Source: an uncultured Verrucomicrobiota bacterium (GTDB lineage Bacteria > Verrucomicrobiota > Verrucomicrobiia > Opitutales > Intestinicryptomonadaceae). Taken from it: 34,751 bases of DNA. Below the pieces are notes generated by a model that saw only the letters and a list, made by a program, of their open reading frames with translations, did not search any database and had not been told where the DNA came from. The position numbers and the translations under genes were made by a program. The DNA is taken from NCBI GenBank assembly GCA_949287395.1, contig CASEFZ010000050.1:1-34751 (forward strand), given 5' to 3'. This document shows positions 9,652 to 34,751 of the stretch, piece after piece (the stretch's first letter is position 1; each line of letters starts with the position of its first letter).

Positions 9652-10304
9652 GGCGCCCCCCCGGTATTTCCAAGATCTGCACGCTCTTTTTCTGATACCG
9701 CCCCGCCAAAAGAGCTTTCCGTTCTCTGGCATGGGCGCTTCGAGAGTTCGCGCTTAAGGAAATATACCGAATTTATGGCTATCGAATGAAATATTTTTCC
9801 TTCCTGAACAAGCCTATCCAACTCCTCTACCGGAACTATGCCCACCGATATTTCCTCGTTTTCGTCCCAATTTAAGCCCGAAACTTTTTTGCAGCCTTCA
9901 AGCATCACGAAGTGCGCCTTATTGTTCTGCACCGCCGGATTCGGCGAGTACGACGCCACAAGCCTTGCGTTCCGCCCCGCATATCCCGTCTCTTCCCGAA
10001 GCTCGCGCTCGGCCGCCTCGAGCGGGGTTTCCCCCTCCTCCACAATTCCGCCCGGAAATTCCAGAGACAGCCTTTCAGCGCCAAAACGGAACTGGGTCTC
10101 CATCACAACCCCCAGTTTCCCGTTTTCCATTTCAACAAGAGCCGCACACTGCACCCAGTCGGGAGAATCGTTGACAAAAAATTCCGAACACCGCCCGTCG
10201 GGATGCCTAAAGGTCTCGGCCATTACCCTAAAAACGCGACAATCAGCCACCAACCTTTCGGAAAGTTTGCTCCAACACTTTGGGATCTCCGTCCCCGAAT
10301 CCAT
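9642..10304 (-). CDS. Nudix hydrolase, ADP-ribose pyrophosphatase-like
   Basis: The product has 220 residues. The Nudix box G-x5-E-x7-REUxEExGU is intact at residues 86-108 (GIVEEGE..R100-E101-L-R-E-E-T-G). The surrounding LSLEFPGGIVEEGE and the MFxFGAERLS-like strand resemble ADP-sugar pyrophosphatases, which cleave ADP-ribose or related sugar nucleotides to AMP and a sugar phosphate. Residues after about 190 (KRPCQRTESSFGG..) look disordered and unlike the family. The last 10 bases overlap dciA. It begins 34 bases after the LysM gene stop. The substrate is inferred only. Confidence 0.88.
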   Translation of the reverse strand: MDSGTEIPKCWSKLSERLVADCRVFRVMAETFRHPDGRCSEFFVNDSPDWVQCAALVEMENGKLGVVMETQFRFGAERLSLEFPGGIVEEGETPLEAAERELREETGYAGRNARLVASYSPNPAVQNNKAHFVMLEGCKKVSGLNWDENEEISVGIVPVEELDRLVQEGKIFHSIAINSVYFLKRELSKRPCQRTESSFGGAVSEKERADLGNTGGAPCL

Positions 10305-10338
10305 GTTTTTGACCGCGGTTGCCTACAGCTTTTCCGCC

Positions 10339-10959
10339 CTACTTCTTGGGGATTTTTATAACCTGGCCAACCCTCAACCTCGAGGGATTTACATCGGGAT
10401 TCGCCGACAATACCGCGTCCACCGACACACCAAATTTTGGCGCTATTTTCGATATCGTGTCTCCCGCCTGAATTTTATAGTCAACCGTTGCCTCGGAGGA
10501 AGCCCCCGATTCCGAAGAAGCCGGAGAAGAAGAATTGCCTGCAACCTGCACGGGGCCGGTTCTCACCGCCGCTCCGCCGGAACGCAGCCTTGCCACTTTC
10601 TCTATCGCCGACCTGTTTTCCTCTATGAGCTTCCTATTCTCGGAAATTATTGTGCCTATTTTTTCCACGGCCGCCTTCACCTGCGAAGAGAGGGCGTCCA
10701 CCCGCGAGTTGTCCCCGCCCTTTATCGCCTCTATCTGCGCCGCAAGCGCGTCTACCTTGTCGCCCATTTTCTTCATATCGAGGGCCAGCGCCGCAGTCTT
10801 TTCTATTCTGTCGGACATATCCTTAGATGCGTCCCCCACCTTTACCATGGCCGAAAGGCTGAGGGCTATCGCCGTCAGCCCGAAGATGAATCCAAGCACG
10901 CCAACCGCCATCAAAACGGTGGAAAGCTTCGCAGATTTTTCAATAGTTTCGTCTTCCAT
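10339..10959 (-). CDS. Membrane-anchored coiled-coil protein with C-terminal LysM domain
   Basis: The product has 206 residues. A short cytoplasmic N-terminus (MEDETIEKSAKLS) precedes one transmembrane helix (about 14-38: VLMAVGVLGFIFGLTAIALSLS). A long heptad-rich helix follows (about 45-125, with KMGDKVDALAAQIEAIK and IISENRKLIEENRSAIEKV), then a Ser-rich linker and a LysM domain (about 161-205: YKIQAGDTISKIAPKFGVS..LRVGQVIKIPK) that would bind peptidoglycan. It should tether the inner membrane to the wall from the periplasmic side. ATG 10959 is preferred; an upstream TTG at 10980 adds seven residues. It is first in the run toward the Nudix, dciA and amidase genes, and diverges from glnD with about 150 bases between. 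Confidence 0.85.
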   Translation of the reverse strand: MEDETIEKSAKLSTVLMAVGVLGFIFGLTAIALSLSAMVKVGDASKDMSDRIEKTAALALDMKKMGDKVDALAAQIEAIKGGDNSRVDALSSQVKAAVEKIGTIISENRKLIEENRSAIEKVARLRSGGAAVRTGPVQVAGNSSSPASSESGASSEATVDYKIQAGDTISKIAPKFGVSVDAVLSANPDVNPSRLRVGQVIKIPKK

Positions 10960-11115
10960 AACTTTAAAAGCTGCCGCCAATATGACATTTTTTTGGGTAA
11001 ACTCAACACTAATATTGCCCCTTGCAAGCAGCGCGACGCATGAAAGAATGGGCGAAAAGTAAAAATTTTAAATGTTGCAAGTTTTCTGCGCCCGTTCATG
11101 GTCGTCCAAGGTGCT

Positions 11116-15645: not shown

Positions 15646-17020
15646 AAAGATTCAACCGCCAATTTGCGGCGCCATGCGAAACGCAGCGCGAACCAAGAGG
15701 CGCAAGCAAGCGCCCGCAAAATGGCTGTGCGCGCCTATAAAAAGCTTCCAGCGGCGCGGCATAAAATTTTCCCGCTGACGCGTTCGGAATGGTATTTTCT
15801 CCATTCGGCTGAAATTATGCGACCGCATGTGCCCGTTTTCTTAATATAAAAACGTGGGAGATCCATTTGTCATGCGGCATTTTTTAGCGCGCCTTGCAGG
15901 AACTATTAAACTGTTCCCGCGTTGGGCTAATACTATGCAAACTAAGAACAATAGCGCATAAAAGTTCCCAAGTCGATATATTGAAGAATTGCAGGGTATC
16001 ATTATTGCCGCTTTAACCTTCACGGAAACACCGAAAGTTTCTGCTTTCATTCCGCTTTAATGTTTTTCGGCGCGGCAAGTTTCCCTATGGGCTTCCATAT
16101 TATAAAGTATATCCGCCCCTTTCAAATAATTCCATACTGGCGCAATCAACCCTCCAAGATAAAGCCTGCCATAATAAACTTCACCAGCACAGTCTTGGAG
16201 ACAAAACTTTAACATGCGCAATGCCACCATATAGTTCCGCGCAGACCCCTATAAGATAAGCAAATCTTCCCCAAAATTCGTAAAAGCTCTGCAATTCATT
16301 GCGGATATTTTCACCCCGTCATGCAATTGAGGAAAAGGATTTATTTAACTAAAATTATTTTGATGAAACGCCCAATTCACGAGAATTTGCTTAAGAGCAA
16401 ATATTCTTGGTTTGAGGGCTAAGGCGTAAGGGGTTTTCTCGGCACTTGTCAGGCCCGCATATTTTCCAACCTTTATATTTTTGGGAAACAACAGCGAAAT
16501 AATGCCTCTACCACAACTCTTTTAGATATGGCGGTTTGTTATAAGAATAAAAATTCTTCCACCCCCGCAAATAGTATTAAATTTTTGCCAAACCTCTCCC
16601 GTCTATTTTATCCTACGCAAATACCTGCAAGTCCCGGCATTTATCTTGAACACGCAGTTTTGCCCAGCAAGACGCGTTCCGTCTATTGTTTTTTTTGGCA
16701 ATGCCTAACTGCGCTGCCAGAATATCCCGGGAAAGGACGGCCTGTAATTCCGCGTGAAGTTTAATCAAGCCGCATGAGCACCACAACAAGGAAGGACACA
16801 CGGAGTTTCCTTCCAAATAGAGACGGAATTTCACGCATCGGCGCATCAATAGCCGATTAAAGCCCAATATCATGCCTCTCAAAAAAAATGGAAAAATCAC
16901 GAATTTTTTTAAAGCAACTTTGGTGCAATACATTAGTGAAGCAAAGAATCCATCATGCGGACCGTTTCTAAAGGGCCAAAAAAGCCCACTCTGGCATTGT
17001 GGTTTGTAAGCCCCAGTAAA
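15646..17020. other. Gene-poor, AT-richer stretch with no supported gene
   Basis: About 1.4 kb on which neither strand carries a frame with recognisable protein features. Short frames here (up to 151 codons) have no plausible start signal, family motif or compositional support, and the longest runs through a terminator. Visible elements are a hairpin at 16382-16407 (AGAATTTGCT-taag-AGCAAATATTCT) and a small plus-strand hairpin with a T8 run at 16670-16696. It may be decayed sequence or host an undetected RNA. Confidence 0.5.
16670..16696 (+). terminator. Possible terminator-like hairpin with no gene upstream
   Basis: AGACG-cgttc-CGTCT (16670-16684) is followed by ATTG and eight T (16689-16696). 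The stem is only five base pairs, but the T-run is strong. No coding gene lies upstream on this strand for about 1 kb. Confidence 0.25.
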
Positions 17021-17056
17021 AACAAAAAGAGCCGTCGCTTGGACGGCTCTTTTCAT
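17021..17056 (-). terminator. Intrinsic terminator after the outer-membrane barrel gene
   Basis: The perfect 10-bp stem AAGAGCCGTC (17028-17037) and GACGGCTCTT (17043-17052) with a 5-base loop is followed on the minus strand by TTTGTTTTT-like sequence (down to 17020) and on the plus strand by only four T. It lies 28 bases past the barrel gene stop. Confidence 0.88.
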
Positions 17057-17079
17057 ATTAAAAAACAATCCTAAAAACC

Positions 17080-17948
17080 TTAGAACATAAACCTCAGGCT
17101 TGCTCCAACCTTGTCCTGGTCGAGATTGATGCCCAACCCAGACTGGCTCTTCCAGAATACGTGCGAATACTGGATTACAAACGCAAAATCATTGGTAAAT
17201 CTATATCCGATCTCAGCACTCAACTCATGCTCCGGAGTTATGAAATTGTCTATGCTTGTCATTTCTGCGCTGGAATCATTGTAGAGGTACTTGCCCTGCA
17301 CATAAAAATCCTTCATAATGCAGAATCTACGCCACCGCCAACAGCCCATGTAAAGGCAACTCCATCCATCCATGCGTCCATGTTGGGAACGCTGACGTCC
17401 ATGCGGGAATATCTACCGCCAACTCCTGCCTGCACGAAGGGTTTTACAATAAAGTCGGGGCTAATTTCCACAGCATAATAGGGGCGCACATAGGCCGGAA
17501 AAGTAAACATATTTATTTCTTCATTTGAATAGCCCGACGAAATATCAGCGTATGTGTATTCAAGCGGAACATACAAATCTACTCCAAAACCGGAATTGCC
17601 TGCGTCCTTGTAGAGATTCACATTAAAGCCGAGACGCGCATCAACCCCAGTTTTAGTCACACCAGACGACGTCAGAAAATCCGCAGCAGCCCCAACCTGC
17701 ACATAGTTGACGCCCAAAGAGGAGAAGTTTCCAATATTTCTCTTAGAAGGAGTCCTCCCAGAAGCCTTCGCTTCAGCTCTCTCCTGCTCGATGCGTTTTG
17801 ACTTTTCAAGTACTTCCTTGGTTGAAACATCACCGCTGCGAATATCTGCGGCAGAAACACCTTCCAAGGAACCCCTATCAGCCTGTCTCGCATAAGGGAG
17901 AGATAAGAAAGCGGGAATAGCCAACACAAGTATAAGATATTTTTTCAT
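17080..17948 (-). pseudogene. Outer-membrane beta-barrel protein gene, broken by a single-base frameshift
   Basis: The first frame (17948-17313) encodes a signal peptide (MKKYLILVLAIPAFLSLPYA), a Lys/Glu-rich linker, and barrel strands such as NYVQVGAAADFLTSS, YVPLEYTYADISSG and VKPFVQAGVGGRYS. It then ends at an early TGA right after AVGGGVD. The next frame continues the barrel (FCIMKDFYVQGKYLYNDSS, HELSAEIGYRFTNDF, QYSHVFW) and closes with the C-terminal aromatic strand GASLRFMF, as BAM-inserted proteins do. The 869-base length is one short of 290 codons, so one base is missing, most simply a T in the GATTCT run (minus strand, near 17324). No slippery heptamer is visible. The repaired product would have about 289 residues. 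It could be a true pseudogene or a sequencing error. Confidence 0.82.
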
Positions 17949-18745
17949 ATTTTTTAATAAATTAGGCTATCGTTCTTGGCATAACAATGATGTTTTGTCA
18001 ACATACTATTTGTAAATCTCTACCCATCTTACTGTTTTATATAGATCAAGATATTTGACTTTGTTAGCTTATATAAAATACATAATCCAAGAAACGCATA
18101 AATTTTCTCGGCACCACACGCGCCTTCTACAGGCGTAGAATTTAACCAACAACATCCTATGCGTCAATAGTATGCCGCCTTATACTGGGGTCACAAGGGC
18201 AATCCGGAACCTTCCGGCATGAATCATAAACGCGCCAAGACTCTTATAGTCGGCAAGCAGCCAGTGCCACCAACTACACCAATAACTGTATGACAATTTT
18301 ATAATTAAAGGTCCCCGTGCGTACATACGCGGCACGCGCACCCTTCCTCTAATATTTGCTTTCCATAAAAGACCAACATGCGCACAAAATTCCCTGTTAG
18401 ATTAAAACTCACCATGCCTTTGCTTCGCGCAAGACTCCGCCTTACGCCGGCATAAAACAAGCCAACGCATAAATTATCCCGTCAAGAAAAACCTTTTTCC
18501 CGGAACCAAACTTTCCTGTAGTCTTACAATGGGGGCGGAATATAGGCACTTTAACGCCACACATAAATCCCCCCGAGCGGATATATTTTCCGCGTGGAAC
18601 AACCCGCACATGATGCATAAAATGAACTCCATTTGCCGATTAAAAACCGGCGCGGCCTCCGGCCAGCCTGCCCGCAAGGCTTGCATCAACATTTTTCCAG
18701 AACCACAAAAAAACGCAACACCTACGCGATTGCCGATTGAAGCGG
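17949..18745. other. Gene-poor stretch between the barrel gene and tRNA-Leu
   Basis: No protein gene is supported. The barrel promoter must lie near 17949-18010; a consensus TTGACA occurs on the minus strand there (17999-17994) but has no good -10 partner at the right distance. Several short inverted repeats lie further on: TTCTAC-aggc-GTAGAA at 18125-18140, CCGGAA-cc-TTCCGG at 18204-18217 and a hairpin at 18317-18335. A plus-strand TTGACT-18-TACATA pair at 18055-18084 could drive a transcript through them. Confidence 0.4.
18642..18682 (-). terminator. Possible terminator after tRNA-Leu
   Basis: On the minus strand, GC-rich inverted repeats (AGCCT..AGGCT and GGCCggaGGCC, about 18682-18647) are followed by TTTTT (18646-18642). 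They lie 64 bases beyond the tRNA 3' end. The fold is ambiguous. Confidence 0.35.
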
Positions 18746-18829
18746 TGCTCAAGGGGGGACTCGAACCCCCATGCAAGCGAATGCACATGAACCTGAATCA
18801 TGCGTGTCTACCAATTTCACCACTTGAGC
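18746..18829 (-). tRNA. tRNA-Leu, anticodon CAG
   Basis: The 84-base gene folds as a class II tRNA. Acceptor arms GCTCAAG (18829-18823) and CTTGAGC pair fully. The D-loop carries AAATTGGTAGAC. The anticodon arm CATGA-TTCAGGT-TCATG places CAG at 18795-18793, reading CUG. A long variable arm TGCA-ttcgct-TGCA follows, then the T-arm GGGGG-TTCGAGT-CCCCC and discriminator A. The 3' CCA is not fully encoded (ACCG), so it would be added by a nucleotidyltransferase. The long variable arm and the A73 discriminator are as expected for leucine. Confidence 0.97.
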
Positions 18830-18932
18830 CCGTCGAGCGGTAAAAACCACTTTGGCAGATCGTGCCCTAATGTTTGTGAATTGCAATATTTATTATTTGA
18901 TTTTTGAAAAATTCACATAAAAACTTGATTAA

Positions 18933-21915: not shown

Positions 21916-24900
21916 ATGAAGAAATTTTTGTTTTCAATCTTTGCCGTATCGATTCTCCGCTTCGCAACGGCAGGTGCGGAATTTGCCCCGGAAGCCGAAT
22001 ACAGCGTATCCGCATGGGGAAAGCGTTTAAATTCTTTTTCGTACAGCCTTCCAATAACGCCCGAAAACGCGAAAAGCTTTGAGTCTAAAAACCCGGAATA
22101 TGCAAGTGTGGAGTATTCTCCCAACGGCGGCATAAACGCGTCTCCGGCGCTGGTAATAAAATTTAGCAAAACCGGCGTCCCGGTTGAAATAACCGGGCCT
22201 GAAATTCCAATAAAAGCTTTTGAGAAAAGCGCCCCCATAACGGAACGCACTTTGGAACTGGGCATGCGCCTGTGCGCCAAAAGCGGAGAGAACTCTTCGC
22301 TGCAAGTACGCATACAGCAGGGCAAATGGTGGCAAACCGCAAAATCCCACCAGCCCACAAGAGCCGGCCACGACGCTTTTTTTGATTTGTACGCAGACCG
22401 CCAACGCGAGTGGGAAAATTTGACGTCAACCGGCAGAATGTCGCCCACCGCAAACCGCGTGCGCATTGTGTTCATCGCCGAGGCAAAGGCCCCGGAAGCC
22501 GAGTTTAGAATAGCATCGCTCTCCCTGCGCGACGAAGTTCAAATAAACCACCAAATAAAGACCCCCGCCGCCTTTAACACATTTTTTAGAGATGATGGAT
22601 GCGCCGAAATAAAATGGGCCTATCCCCAAAACATAATTTCGGCCAAGGTCAGGCTGTTCGATGAAGAAAAAAAACTCGTCTTAGAACAGCCCGCCGATAA
22701 ATTCGACACTTGCTTTAGAGTGGATTTAAGACGGCGCGGATTTTACCGCATAGAAGCCGATGCCACCTACAAAGACGCCTCCAAGATAGTCTCATCAGCC
22801 ACGGCTTTTGTTGCGGGGCGCCCGATGAACGAAAGCGCCAGGCGCAACTCCCCCTTCGGAATGGTCACCAGAAGGCTTCCGCCAAGCTTTGCAATGGATT
22901 TGGGCGTAAACCACAATTACAACCTTTACAGCCTTCAGCACGGCGTTGAGCGCGGAAAAACCGGTGCATACACATTTAAAAACAACACATTCAACTGGTA
23001 TTCAAAAGGCGACGACAGGCGTTTCACCAGCCATTTGTCGGGGCACCCCGACTACCCCTCATGGATAAAAGACCCCAAGCATACTACCGGCAATTTAAGG
23101 CCGCCAACCGAATGGGACGAATACGAGAAAATCGTGGAAGGATTCGTTCGCTCCCTCAAGGAAAAACCCTCGAGCTTCTGCTGGCAAAACGAGCCCGATA
23201 CCAGGCTATTTGACGATTCCATCATGGTTGAATCCCACAAACATTTTGCCAAGGCTGTAAAACGCGCATATCCCGAAGCCAAAATAGCTGCTTATTGCAG
23301 CTATGGCATATTTCCTGAGAAGATTGAAAAATACATATCAATGGGCATGTTTGACGGGGTTGATATTCTAAACACCCACAACTATGAAAGCGGAAGCATA
23401 CCCGAAGAGGGATTTATCTTGCGGGTTCGCGCGCTGAAGGCTGTTTTGAAAAAAAACGGCCTGAAAGATTTGCCAATAGTCATCAGCGAATTTGGTTGGA
23501 TGTCAAAGGGCATAGAGTCAAAGTACTCCGTCCATTCCGAATTGGACAAGGCAAGGTACGCAGCAAGGGCCATGCTTTTATCGGCCGCCGAGGGCGTATA
23601 CGGCATGTGCCTCTTTGACGGACAGGGCGGCGGAAGGGACTTCCCGGAATTTTCCTCATACAGATTCGACAACCAGCCGCTTCCACAGGCGGCCGCGTTT
23701 TCGACTCTCGCAAAAATTGCCGGAGCGGCAAAGAACGCAAAACTTATAAATTTCGCCCCCGACTTATATTGCGTATCTTTCAAGACGCCTGAAGGGTCTC
23801 TATGGGCCATGTGGACAACTGCGGAAAGCAGAAAAATAAAATTGCCGCAAAAGCCAATCTCCATTGTTTCGATGTGCGGAACGCCCAAAGAGGCCGCTGC
23901 GGAAACGGAGGTGTCGCCATCGCCCGTCTACTTGAGTTTCGACAATCCAAACTTGTCGAATATCGAGGTCTTAAGCTCGGAAGAGTTGTTCCAAACTTCG
24001 CCAGTCAAATTTAAAGATCCCGTTTTGGCTGTTCCAGAAATACTCGACGTGCAAAATCAAATAACTTTTACCAAGGCCAAACCCGGTTCTTACGAGGCGC
24101 TTTTTAAAACTTCCCAAGGAAAATTTTTTCTGAGAAAGTTCGGTGTGCTAAAGGGAATAGACGTTGAATTCAAAGGCGCCCAAACCCTTTCAGACAGGCC
24201 GTCTGTTAAGTTCTGCTACAATGTAAAATCGGATTATTCCGCCCCCATAAAGATGAAGGCTTGGATTGAAGACAAGCGCGGGAAAATCCTTTCCGAAAAA
24301 GTTGCGGATATACGCGGCGGCGACAATCCCGTGGAATTTACCCTTGCAGTAAAAAATGCCAAACGCATTTCAGGATCCGCCAAATTCAAAGTTTTCCAGC
24401 CGTTTGAATGGTCGCGCGAAATCCCCTACGACTTCACCGCCCTCTATTTCCCCTACTTTAAGAATAAGGAAATAAACTGGGAAAAAGTGCCTGCCGTCCG
24501 CATGGACAAGTGGCACACCGGGGCCGATCTAATCAAACTTGGAAGTTCAGCTCCTGATTTTTCCGTAAGTTTGCAGTGCGCCGCCGACGATTCCGGCATA
24601 GCTTTCAGAATTTCCGCCGCCGATTCAAAACATATCCAAAACGACCTTTGGCAAAACATGCACAGGCAAGACAGCCTGCAAATCCTTCTCGATATAGACG
24701 CCGACGCCCCGTGGGACGAAAACAACATTGGCGGCAACAAATACCAGGGCCACAGGCTTGTCTCATACGGCTTCGCAAGGAAACGCGACGGCGGCTGCAT
24801 GTCGTGGGTGTTCCGGGCATATTCCGACATTGTAAAGGGCGGGCCTGCAGCCTATTCCAAGGCAAAGGTTTTGCGGCTAGGCCCACCAAATTATAGAACC

Positions 24901-25095
24901 GTTTACCAGATATATTTGCCATGGAAGGCTCTGGGCTCAACGGAGGCGCCGGATATGAATTCCTCTATAGGCTTTGCGGCCGTTTTAAACGATTTTGACG
25001 GACAAAAGCGTACCCGGCTTCCTTTTTTCCACGGCGTGGACAACTTAAATGAGGCAAAAAGCGGCATGGGTAAAATTAAGTTTTATCTAAAATGA
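21916..25095 (+). CDS. Large secreted glycoside hydrolase with C-terminal carbohydrate-binding-like domain
   Basis: The product has 1059 residues. A signal peptide (MKKFLFSIFAVSILRFATAG) is followed by a beta-sandwich (about 25-210) and a fibronectin-like segment (about 225-305). A TIM-barrel of clan GH-A type spans about 310-610. The proposed acid/base is E426 in CWQNEPDTRL and the nucleophile E525 in VISEFGWMS; the 99-residue spacing is normal for the clan. Beta-rich linker domains follow. The last about 190 residues (from FPYFKNKEINWEKVP, with DSLQILLDIDADAPW and YQIYLPWKALG) resemble family-9-type carbohydrate-binding or DOMON-like domains. It is probably exported to the periplasm or surface to degrade a glycan whose identity is unknown. 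It stands alone: no transporter, sulfatase or regulator gene is adjacent. The exact GH family cannot be named from the sequence alone. Confidence 0.8.
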   Translation: MKKFLFSIFAVSILRFATAGAEFAPEAEYSVSAWGKRLNSFSYSLPITPENAKSFESKNPEYASVEYSPNGGINASPALVIKFSKTGVPVEITGPEIPIKAFEKSAPITERTLELGMRLCAKSGENSSLQVRIQQGKWWQTAKSHQPTRAGHDAFFDLYADRQREWENLTSTGRMSPTANRVRIVFIAEAKAPEAEFRIASLSLRDEVQINHQIKTPAAFNTFFRDDGCAEIKWAYPQNIISAKVRLFDEEKKLVLEQPADKFDTCFRVDLRRRGFYRIEADATYKDASKIVSSATAFVAGRPMNESARRNSPFGMVTRRLPPSFAMDLGVNHNYNLYSLQHGVERGKTGAYTFKNNTFNWYSKGDDRRFTSHLSGHPDYPSWIKDPKHTTGNLRPPTEWDEYEKIVEGFVRSLKEKPSSFCWQNEPDTRLFDDSIMVESHKHFAKAVKRAYPEAKIAAYCSYGIFPEKIEKYISMGMFDGVDILNTHNYESGSIPEEGFILRVRALKAVLKKNGLKDLPIVISEFGWMSKGIESKYSVHSELDKARYAARAMLLSAAEGVYGMCLFDGQGGGRDFPEFSSYRFDNQPLPQAAAFSTLAKIAGAAKNAKLINFAPDLYCVSFKTPEGSLWAMWTTAESRKIKLPQKPISIVSMCGTPKEAAAETEVSPSPVYLSFDNPNLSNIEVLSSEELFQTSPVKFKDPVLAVPEILDVQNQITFTKAKPGSYEALFKTSQGKFFLRKFGVLKGIDVEFKGAQTLSDRPSVKFCYNVKSDYSAPIKMKAWIEDKRGKILSEKVADIRGGDNPVEFTLAVKNAKRISGSAKFKVFQPFEWSREIPYDFTALYFPYFKNKEINWEKVPAVRMDKWHTGADLIKLGSSAPDFSVSLQCAADDSGIAFRISAADSKHIQNDLWQNMHRQDSLQILLDIDADAPWDENNIGGNKYQGHRLVSYGFARKRDGGCMSWVFRAYSDIVKGGPAAYSKAKVLRLGPPNYRTVYQIYLPWKALGSTEAPDMNSSIGFAAVLNDFDGQKRTRLPFFHGVDNLNEAKSGMGKIKFYLK

Positions 25096-31709: not shown

Positions 31710-32636
31710 CTACTCGTTTTTTTCCAGTCCGAAAACCCCCTCCGCATACGCCGCAGAATCGAATTTTTGCAAATCCTGCGCCTTTTCGCCAAGCCCCACA
31801 TAGGCTATCGGAAGCTTCAATTCCCTGTAAATACCGGCAAGCGCACCTCCCTTTGAGGTGCCGTCAAGCTTTGTGACAATCATCGAGGTCAACCCAAAGC
31901 TCTCGTTAAACGCCTTCGCCTGCTCTATGCTGTTAGACCCCAAACTTGCGTCCAAAACTATCACCGAATTGTGCGGGGATGTAGGGTCGTTTTTTGCGAG
32001 CACGCGCCTTATTTTTGCGAGCTCGCCCATCAAATTTTCCTTTGTATGCAGGCGCCCTGCCGTGTCTATTATCAGCCATTTTGCGCCGCGCGCCTTCGCC
32101 GCCTGCCACGCGTCCCACGCTGCAGCCGCGCTGTCCGCGCCCTGGCGGCTCTCCACTATGTCCACCCCAAGCTTTTTCGCCCAAACGCTTATTTGCTCGT
32201 TGGCAGCCGCCCTGAATGTGTCGCACGCGCCAAGCAAAACGCTCTCTCCGCAGTCCATGAACTTCTGGGCGAGCTTCGCGGCGGTCGTGGTCTTTCCAGC
32301 CCCGTTTACGCCGACAAGACACACGACAGTCGGAAGGCCGTCGGGCGCCCTCGCAAATTCGGCTTCGCTGCCGGAAAGTATGTCTTTCAAGACCGCCGCC
32401 CCTATCTCCGCCGCCTCGCGGCCGCGAAGCTCCTTATTGCGGGCATACTCTCGGCGTATCGCCCCTACTATCTGCTCTGTGGTCTCAAGCCCAAAATCCG
32501 CCCCGTACAGGGTCTCCTCTATGGACTCAATGTCCGCGTCGCTTATCCTTCTGCCGAAGAGCGCGCCCAATCCGCCCAACGCGGCCGCCGCCGTCTTCTT
32601 CAGGCCATCGCGAAATTTCTTAAAAACGGAAAACAT
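31710..32636 (-). CDS. ftsY: Signal recognition particle receptor FtsY
   Basis: FtsY is the membrane-associated GTPase that docks SRP-ribosome complexes for co-translational insertion. The 308 residues comprise the N and G domains only, lacking the long acidic A domain of the E. coli protein; the basic N-terminus (MFSVFKKFRDGLKKT) may bind membrane. The P-loop GVNGAGKTTT is at 109-118, DTFRAAANEQ near 139, DTAGRLHTKENL near 195 and TKLDGTSKGG near 260, all SRP-GTPase signatures. It follows nusB by 12 bases and is followed by aroB after 10. Confidence 0.97.
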   Translation of the reverse strand: MFSVFKKFRDGLKKTAAAALGGLGALFGRRISDADIESIEETLYGADFGLETTEQIVGAIRREYARNKELRGREAAEIGAAVLKDILSGSEAEFARAPDGLPTVVCLVGVNGAGKTTTAAKLAQKFMDCGESVLLGACDTFRAAANEQISVWAKKLGVDIVESRQGADSAAAAWDAWQAAKARGAKWLIIDTAGRLHTKENLMGELAKIRRVLAKNDPTSPHNSVIVLDASLGSNSIEQAKAFNESFGLTSMIVTKLDGTSKGGALAGIYRELKLPIAYVGLGEKAQDLQKFDSAAYAEGVFGLEKNE

Positions 32637-32648
32637 TCCAGCCGTCCC

Positions 32649-33104
32649 CTACTTCGACGCCGAGCGCAACGGCCTGTTAAGCTTCTCCTTTATATTGTCC
32701 AAAACCCCGTTTATAAACCTGCGGGAATCCGCACCCGCGTAAATCTTAGACAAATCTATGGCCTCGTTTATCGAAACAATGGGCGGTATGTCTGTCCTGA
32801 AGAGCAACTCAAAAACCGCCAGCCTCAATATTGCCAAATCCACGCGCGCAATTCTGTCCATTGTCCAATTCTTCGCGCTTTTGGATATCGCAGCGTCTAT
32901 ATCCGCAGAATTGGCCAGAAAGCCGGCTACAAGCTCCTCGGCAAAGGCGTAGTATTCGCGCGGATGCTCCAGCCCGGACAGAAATTCCGCAATGGCGGCG
33001 TTGGAATCGTCGCGCTTGTTCATGTCCAACATGTACAGAATCTGCATTGCCGCCGCGCGGTTCTCCCGGCGGTTCGAGTATTTTTGATTCTCTTTGTCCT
33101 GCAT
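32649..33104 (-). CDS. nusB: Transcription antitermination protein NusB
   Basis: NusB pairs with NusE (S10) on boxA of rRNA leaders to prevent early termination. The 151-residue protein has the RRENRAAAMQILYMLDM start, the central DRIARVDLAILRLAVFELLF helix and the INEAIDLSKIYAGADSRRFINGVLDNI C-terminal signature. It lies six bases after ribH and 12 before ftsY. The ribH-nusB pairing is found in many bacteria. Confidence 0.95.
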   Translation of the reverse strand: MQDKENQKYSNRRENRAAAMQILYMLDMNKRDDSNAAIAEFLSGLEHPREYYAFAEELVAGFLANSADIDAAISKSAKNWTMDRIARVDLAILRLAVFELLFRTDIPPIVSINEAIDLSKIYAGADSRRFINGVLDNIKEKLNRPLRSASK

Positions 33105-33110
33105 AGAAAT

Positions 33111-33758
33111 TTAACCCTTTCTCGGCTTTCTCGACCTCTTGGCTACGCGTTTTTTCTGCACTCCCTTTTCGTATATTTCGTCCTCCGGCAAAAGAACAAC
33201 ATCGTCGTCGCCATCCAAAAACTCGGCAACGCCTTCGCCAAAATCTTCGTCAAAAAAATCCCCGTTGTCCACGGAGTCCAAATACTCCGAAAAAACGTCC
33301 TCCGCCACATGGGCCATGTCCAGCGCCGATTCCCCAAACTCCACTCCGCGCCTTATCTTTCCCGTTGTGCGCGCCTCCGCCTGGGACCTGTCGTTGGTCA
33401 CAATTATCCCGTTTATTATCGGAACGCCGCTTTTAACCGCGGCATGCTGCAAGGCCACCGCAGTGCTGTTGCCTATAATTTCATGGTGGGGCGTCTGACC
33501 CTTTATAACCACGCCCAGCGCCACAACGGCGTCGTAATTGCCGGTGGAGGCCAAAAGCGAGGCCATTGCCGGTATCTCCGTCGCGCCCGGAACGCGCACA
33601 ACCCTGGTGTTTGCTCGCGCAACCCCCCCGTCGGAAAACACTTTCAACACATCATCCAAAAGCGCATCAACCAACTCTCCGTTGAAGCGCGACGCCACAA
33701 CCGCAAACGCGTATCCGCTTCCGTCTTTCGATAAATTCTTAGCCTTGTCAAAACTCAT
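33111..33758 (-). CDS. ribH: 6,7-dimethyl-8-ribityllumazine synthase with charged C-terminal tail
   Basis: RibH condenses the ribityl-aminouracil with dihydroxybutanone phosphate to make lumazine, the direct precursor of riboflavin. Visible motifs: VVASRFNGELVDALLDD near 20-36, VPGATEIP near 56-63, ALGVVIKGQTPHHE with catalytic-type H91, and PIINGIIVTNDRSQAEAR. The family core ends near residue 157. A tail of about 55 residues follows, acidic first (161-188) and then strongly basic, ending in KKRVAKRSRKPRKG. The start MSFDKAKNLS overlaps the ribB(A) stop as ATGA (33758-33755), so the two are translationally coupled. The frame open to 33950 is inside ribB(A) and is not used. Confidence 0.93.
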   Translation of the reverse strand: MSFDKAKNLSKDGSGYAFAVVASRFNGELVDALLDDVLKVFSDGGVARANTRVVRVPGATEIPAMASLLASTGNYDAVVALGVVIKGQTPHHEIIGNSTAVALQHAAVKSGVPIINGIIVTNDRSQAEARTTGKIRRGVEFGESALDMAHVAEDVFSEYLDSVDNGDFFDEDFGEGVAEFLDGDDDVVLLPEDEIYEKGVQKKRVAKRSRKPRKG

Positions 33759-34751
33759 TCTGCACCTCCAATCTTGACCTCCTCCACAATTTCCAATCCA
33801 AAGCCCTCGGGCAATCTGTGTTTTCCGGGATGGGTAGTCATCAGCCTGATTTTTTTGAACCCCAACACGCGCAAAATTTGGGCTCCAACTCCGTAGTCCC
33901 TCATCGTGGGCAGCAAAGCCTCGCCTTCCGGAACTTTTATTCCCCCGCACGGCTGGCTTATGTATATTGCCGCCCCGCAGCCCTGCCGCGATATAATCTT
34001 TAGCGCCTCGGCAAAATTTGACGCGCCAAGCACACCTCCAGCCTCACAGAACATGTCCTCAAACACGTTCTCAGAATGCACCCTCGCAAGGGTTGGTTCC
34101 CCGCTTATTTCGCCTTTGACAAGCGCGTAGTGCACCCTTCCGTCAACCGAGCTTAGCCCGACCAATTTAAAAGCGCCGAACTGCGTGTCAAAATCGCGCT
34201 CAAACAGCTTTTTTATGAGGGTGTCGCGTTTGAGCCTATACTCTATCAACGACGCCACCGTCATCAACTTCATGTTGTGGCGCCTCTTAAAATCTATCAA
34301 ATCCGGCAGCCGCGCCATTGTGCCGTCGTCGTTCATTATCTCGCATATTGCCGCGCAAGGGTACAAGCCGGCCAGCCGCGCCAAATCCACCGCAGCCTCC
34401 GTGTGGCCGGCGCGCTGAAGCACGCCGCCGGGCCGCGCCCTGAGCGGATTTACATGCCCGGGGCTGACAAAGTCAGCCGCAGAAGCGTTCCTGTCGGCCA
34501 TCAAACGTATGGTTCTGGCCCTGTCTGCGGCGCTTATGCCCGTGGTAACCCCGCTGGAGGCGTCAACTGTGACAGTAAACGCCGTTCCCTTGGCATCGCG
34601 GTTAAGGCGCACCATGTCGTCTATGCCAAGCTCTGTCAGGCGCTGGCTTGTTGTGGGAACGCAAACCAACCCGCGCGCAAACCTGACCATGGTATTGACT
34701 ATCTGCGGAGTTATCTTTTCGGCGGCAACTATCATATCGCCCTCGTTTTCG
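33755..34751 (-). CDS. ribB: RibBA-type protein: DHBP synthase with a degenerate GTP cyclohydrolase II-like domain, 5' end missing
   Basis: The gene runs off the right edge; the visible 331 residues begin in the conserved ENEGD..IVAAEKITP motif, about 25-30 residues into the protein. The N-terminal half is 3,4-dihydroxy-2-butanone-4-phosphate synthase, which makes the four-carbon unit of lumazine from ribulose 5-phosphate: TVDASSGVTTGISAADRA, FVSPGHVNPLRA and the catalytic RAGHTEAAVDL are intact. The C-terminal half aligns with GTP cyclohydrolase II at ARVHSENVFEDMF and AQILRVLGFKKIRLMT. It lacks the three zinc cysteines (the C-x10-CDC pattern after the HSE motif) and the GREEGRGIGL loop. I infer that this half is not a working cyclohydrolase. 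ribH follows with a 4-base overlap. Confidence 0.93.
   Translation of the reverse strand, partial: ENEGDMIVAAEKITPQIVNTMVRFARGLVCVPTTSQRLTELGIDDMVRLNRDAKGTAFTVTVDASSGVTTGISAADRARTIRLMADRNASAADFVSPGHVNPLRARPGGVLQRAGHTEAAVDLARLAGLYPCAAICEIMNDDGTMARLPDLIDFKRRHNMKLMTVASLIEYRLKRDTLIKKLFERDFDTQFGAFKLVGLSSVDGRVHYALVKGEISGEPTLARVHSENVFEDMFCEAGGVLGASNFAEALKIISRQGCGAAIYISQPCGGIKVPEGEALLPTMRDYGVGAQILRVLGFKKIRLMTTHPGKHRLPEGFGLEIVEEVKIGGAE

Follow-up and report, generated by a model that had tools for sequence, protein, structure and literature searches.

An outer-membrane barrel gene interrupted by a one-base frame break in an uncultured Opitutales bacterium

The barrel gene and its surroundings

The window analysed here, a stretch of 34,751 nucleotides, is an entire contig (C50) of an assembly that comprises 119 contigs and 1.93 Mb and is 92% complete. 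It carries an outer-membrane barrel gene on the minus strand that changes frame once (Table 1). The frame of the second piece is open over about 17412-17083, and the two frames overlap over about 17412-17313. By reading, the N-terminus of the first piece is hydrophobic and resembles a signal peptide (MKKYLILVLAIPAFLSLPYA); this start and the C-terminal aromatic residue in the final LRFMF are hallmarks of an outer-membrane barrel. The hairpin downstream of the gene has 15 pairs followed by T-rich sequence, and the 76 nt around it give a folding z of -3.33, in keeping with the preliminary description of this DNA, which had noted that a good terminator is retained.

The stretches flanking the barrel gene, 15646-17021 (about 1.4 kb) and 17949-18743 (0.8 kb), contain no ORF that we judged convincing. 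A blastn search of 15646-18930 against the comparison loci (E up to 1e-3) returned matches to the barrel homologue described below and to the tRNA-Leu gene at 18744-18829 only. Elsewhere in the window, the plus-strand ORF at 9838-11043 (401 aa) has no Pfam match above the curated cut-off; the plus-strand ORF at 21916-25095 (1059 aa) has none above the cut-off either, and shows only a weak match to CBM9_1.

Table 1. Features of the barrel locus in the window (positions are those of the window)
Feature	Position (nt)	Strand	Description
Barrel gene, whole	17948 to 17080	minus	single frame change, between 17328 and 17325
First piece	17313-17948	minus	ATG start at 17948, 211 codons, TGA stop at 17315-17313; covers roughly the N-terminal two thirds
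Second piece	17080-17325	minus	next frame; C-terminal part ending LRFMF, then stop codon
Frame break	17323-17330	minus	one base net short compared with homologues
ATGA	17313-17316	minus	first-frame TGA stop sharing bases with a second-frame ATG
Intrinsic terminator	17022-17056	minus	downstream of the barrel gene

Homologues, distribution and age of the break

A second genus of the family has an intact homologue, on contig G014:C24 (the source of loci L002, L009 and L016), which fits CALXLX010000024.1 of 'uncultured Opitutales bacterium isolate E27__bin309'. It occupies L009:9640-10557 as one uninterrupted frame of 306 aa. In single BLASTP comparisons the first piece of the window gene aligns to residues 16-227 of this protein (133 of 213 aligned positions identical, 62%; E 3e-93) and the second piece to residues 224-306 (56 of 83, 67%; E 5e-41). 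That both pieces match one protein is far beyond chance, and the window carries one ancestral gene in two frames, not two genes, as the preliminary description had proposed. Where the homologue reads GGGVEFCI, the window has GGGV in one frame and goes on with FCI in the next, so the interval from the V codon (17330-17328) to the F codon (17325-17323) is one base net short. The earlier placement of a missing base near 17324 was thus right to within a few bases.

The homologue matches the Pfam profile PF13505 (OMP_b-brl) with 39.2 bits, passing the cut-off of 28.7. The first piece of the window gene (P0001) matches the same profile with 21.6 bits, and the score was 25.0 bits when the barrel gene was read through its stop in a profile search of its own genome; the split copy is therefore below the cut-off in both cases. 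Matches in an NCBIfam profile search were all far under the cut-offs. Against solved structures, P0001 had no match at E up to 1, and alignment A1 gave four weak matches only, to a porin, a hypothetical protein, LptD and OmpA (best E 0.037). An AlphaFold2 model of the homologue, made from an alignment of only four rows, had a mean pLDDT of 36.8, which is too low for the model to be informative on the fold. Like the window gene, the homologue is followed by a terminator-like hairpin (by reading); unlike the window copy, it lies in a single frame and has other neighbour genes within the 19.5 kb seen (by reading). It is flanked on one side by 1.7 kb without a listed 120-aa ORF, and on the other side by a 127-aa ORF as the only one within 1.2 kb.

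We searched 19 genomes of the family, including that of the window, for further homologues. Of the 18 other genomes, 10 contained 11 homologous places between them and 8 gave no match; the window's own genome contained one more place. Identity is mostly 28-34%, indicating distant relatives. The match extends beyond the break position in 10 of the 11 places, and in the remaining one, G016:C3, it stops at the contig end. Homologues whose frame ends naturally at the break, which the preliminary description had named as counter-evidence, were looked for among the 10 places that pass this position, and there are none. None of the 11 places contains a stop inside the match, and neither does the paralogue in the genome of the window; among all the places found in the 19 genomes, only the window copy is split. 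The window's genome and G001 belong to the same genus. Among the 13 other genomes of this genus, two match the first piece and six match the full homologue, none with more than 35% identity; the relative with 64% identity belongs to another genus and has different neighbours (by reading). The barrel gene is patchily distributed. From this distribution we infer that it is probably dispensable, which would fit a tolerated loss.

The paralogue in the window's own genome (L098:957-1718, contig C76) is distant and has an intact ORF of 253 aa. It adjoins a gene for an iron-containing alcohol dehydrogenase, as does the second copy in G014. Scanning genome contigs, among which records of the window's genome or of a very near one may be missing, with P0001 yielded no confirmed relative among 198 pattern-matching stretches, scanning them with alignment A2 yielded two loci from 276 stretches, both of them relatives already found, and in a scan of viral contigs none of 273 stretches was confirmed. 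In the literature, titles and the openings of abstracts contained nothing on this gene.

The sequence behind the break bears on its age. Compared with the intact homologue, the first piece (206 codons) has a dN of 0.269 and the second (81 codons) one of 0.205; synonymous sites are saturated (dS 3.1 in the first piece, whereas no value could be computed in the second). Identity of the second piece to the homologue is 72, 91 and 48% at codon positions 1, 2 and 3, respectively, and this piece contains no further stop. Such a pattern indicates that, during most of the time since the two genes diverged, selection has acted on the protein encoded behind the break. In a simple simulation of decay with an assumed rate of 0.1 indel per substitution, a neutral divergence of 5% gave a chance of 19% of finding no further stop or indel, and one of 10% gave a chance of 3%. 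Because the second piece retains the substitution pattern of a coding sequence, any loss would be recent, as the preliminary description had suspected from the retained terminator. Judged by these comparisons, the break is either recent or not real, with 'recent' loosely bounded given the saturation of dS.

Frame breaks elsewhere in the assembly

We compared 262 kb of the assembly (the window and up to 20 kb from each of 20 other contigs) with stretches of G001, G004, G008 and G014 that total about 1.2 Mb. A first pass covered 144 reference queries and flagged four, including the barrel, and the reverse comparison covered 126 and flagged two. A second pass, in which genes were chosen greedily, used 877 reference genes as queries; their matches covered 50 distinct loci of the assembly (19,828 codons). 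Four of these 50 loci were multi-frame, and the barrel was the only break that remained after inspection.

The other candidates were rejected for the following reasons. The apparent break at L034:10583-11978 (+) lies opposite two genes of the minus strand that match MetW and alpha/beta-hydrolase profiles, and the G001 ORF that matches it is likewise antisense to the counterparts of these genes. The one at 33313-34345 (+) of the window is antisense to minus-strand genes that match DHBP_synthase/GTP_cyclohydro2 and DMRL_synthase profiles; again, the matching ORF, in L073, is antisense to the counterparts. At L025:3677-6507 one query fell on two tandem similar genes with another ORF between them. 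A flag raised in the first pass only, at 32307-30629 (-) of the window, covers two overlapping genes with SRP54-type GTPase and 3-dehydroquinate synthase profiles, and the matching ORF in L055 reads the SRP54-type GTPase gene out of frame. The two flags of the reverse comparison, at 31971-33734 (+) of the window and at L025:1190-2275 (+), come from long query ORFs that are antisense to minus-strand ORFs.

In these genomes, long open frames often lie antisense to genes or longer ORFs, as at the last two positions and at L041:2278-3681 (+), and such antisense frames produce false frame-break calls in six-frame comparisons.

With every other candidate explained, indels are not generally abundant in the assembly. 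The lack of another break among the 50 loci mildly favours a real allele, with the caveat that the barrel gene was selected for its being broken.

Interpretation of the break

Three mechanisms would keep a gene of this layout working, and the evidence speaks against each of them. In a two-cistron gene, translation would re-start at the ATG that overlaps the first stop, and a C-terminal piece of 78 residues would join the first piece in the membrane. Both pieces are conserved and the ATGA lies exactly where the first frame exits, but simulated one-base losses in 20 ORFs of the window produced an ATGA exit in 640 of 7751 cases (8.3%), which puts the observed one not clearly beyond chance, and a resumed-frame ATG within 15 nt of the stop in 2133 of 7751 (27.5%). 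Given these frequencies in simulated losses, the overlap is weak evidence for re-starting. No homologue that we found is split at the break position, no convincing Shine-Dalgarno sequence precedes the ATG (by reading), and we regard a split barrel as improbable. Phase variation through a reversible indel, one of three explanations offered in the preliminary description, could be imagined for a one-base change in a predicted surface protein. The break, however, coincides with neither a repeat tract nor a long homopolymer, and the only runs of at least five in the gene, an A6 at 17945 in the region of the start codon and a T5 at 17308, are not at the break site, so that this explanation falls away almost entirely. 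Programmed ribosomal -1 frameshifting is the least probable of the three, despite the overlap of the two frames. The overlap contains no XXXYYYZ heptamer (three occur in the first piece outside it, at 17945, 17718 and 17444), and a 96-nt stretch spanning the break and the sequence behind it has a folding z of +1.05, with 172 of 200 shuffles folding at least as well in a calculation that leaves pseudoknots aside. Nor is the two-frame layout conserved: with no stop inside the match in any of the 11 homologous places, the homologues need no shift. The earlier statement that slippery heptamer and stimulatory hairpin are both lacking therefore holds.

The remaining choice is between a real loss and an error in the assembled consensus, the two other explanations that had been offered, and both are consistent with homologues in one frame and an undecayed second piece. 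An error, whether a sequencing indel or one arising from the mixing of strains, would mean that the organism's gene is intact and encodes an ordinary barrel. In favour of an error are the fragmentation of the assembly (119 contigs, at 92% completeness), the size of the break, which amounts to a single base, and the conservation of both pieces, which equals that of a working gene; a lone consensus error within 1.9 Mb would be indistinguishable from a null allele. Conversely, the site is not in a long homopolymer, and the break is the sole one among 50 comparable loci (19,828 codons) in 262 kb, the other three multi-frame calls being two antisense ORFs and one tandem pair of similar genes. On balance a real allele is slightly favoured, and an error is a possibility to be taken seriously, at roughly one chance in three.

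The explanation that we consider best, with moderate confidence, is that this Opitutales bacterium carries a recent null allele of an accessory barrel gene of the OMP_b-brl type whose distribution is patchy. Single-base frameshift pseudogenes are a common kind in bacterial genomes, and the window gene shares with them a single indel, pieces that can still be aligned and a retained terminator; homologues in one frame together with a downstream piece free of decay are what a recent case would present. In the sampled strain the frame would have been lost recently through the net loss of one base. Ribosomes would then stop after 211 residues, and the truncated product would lack its final strands as well as the aromatic residue at the C-terminus. 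This residue of a barrel is recognised by the BAM machinery. The truncated product would probably be degraded, leaving the strain without the surface protein. The explanation is an ordinary one, and there is no sign of a special mechanism.

In the case of an error, the locus should be annotated as a single intact barrel gene; if the break is real, the locus should be recorded as one broken gene, not as two proteins. A real break would be a routine event, adding to the recent losses of surface proteins with patchy distribution, here in an Opitutales lineage.
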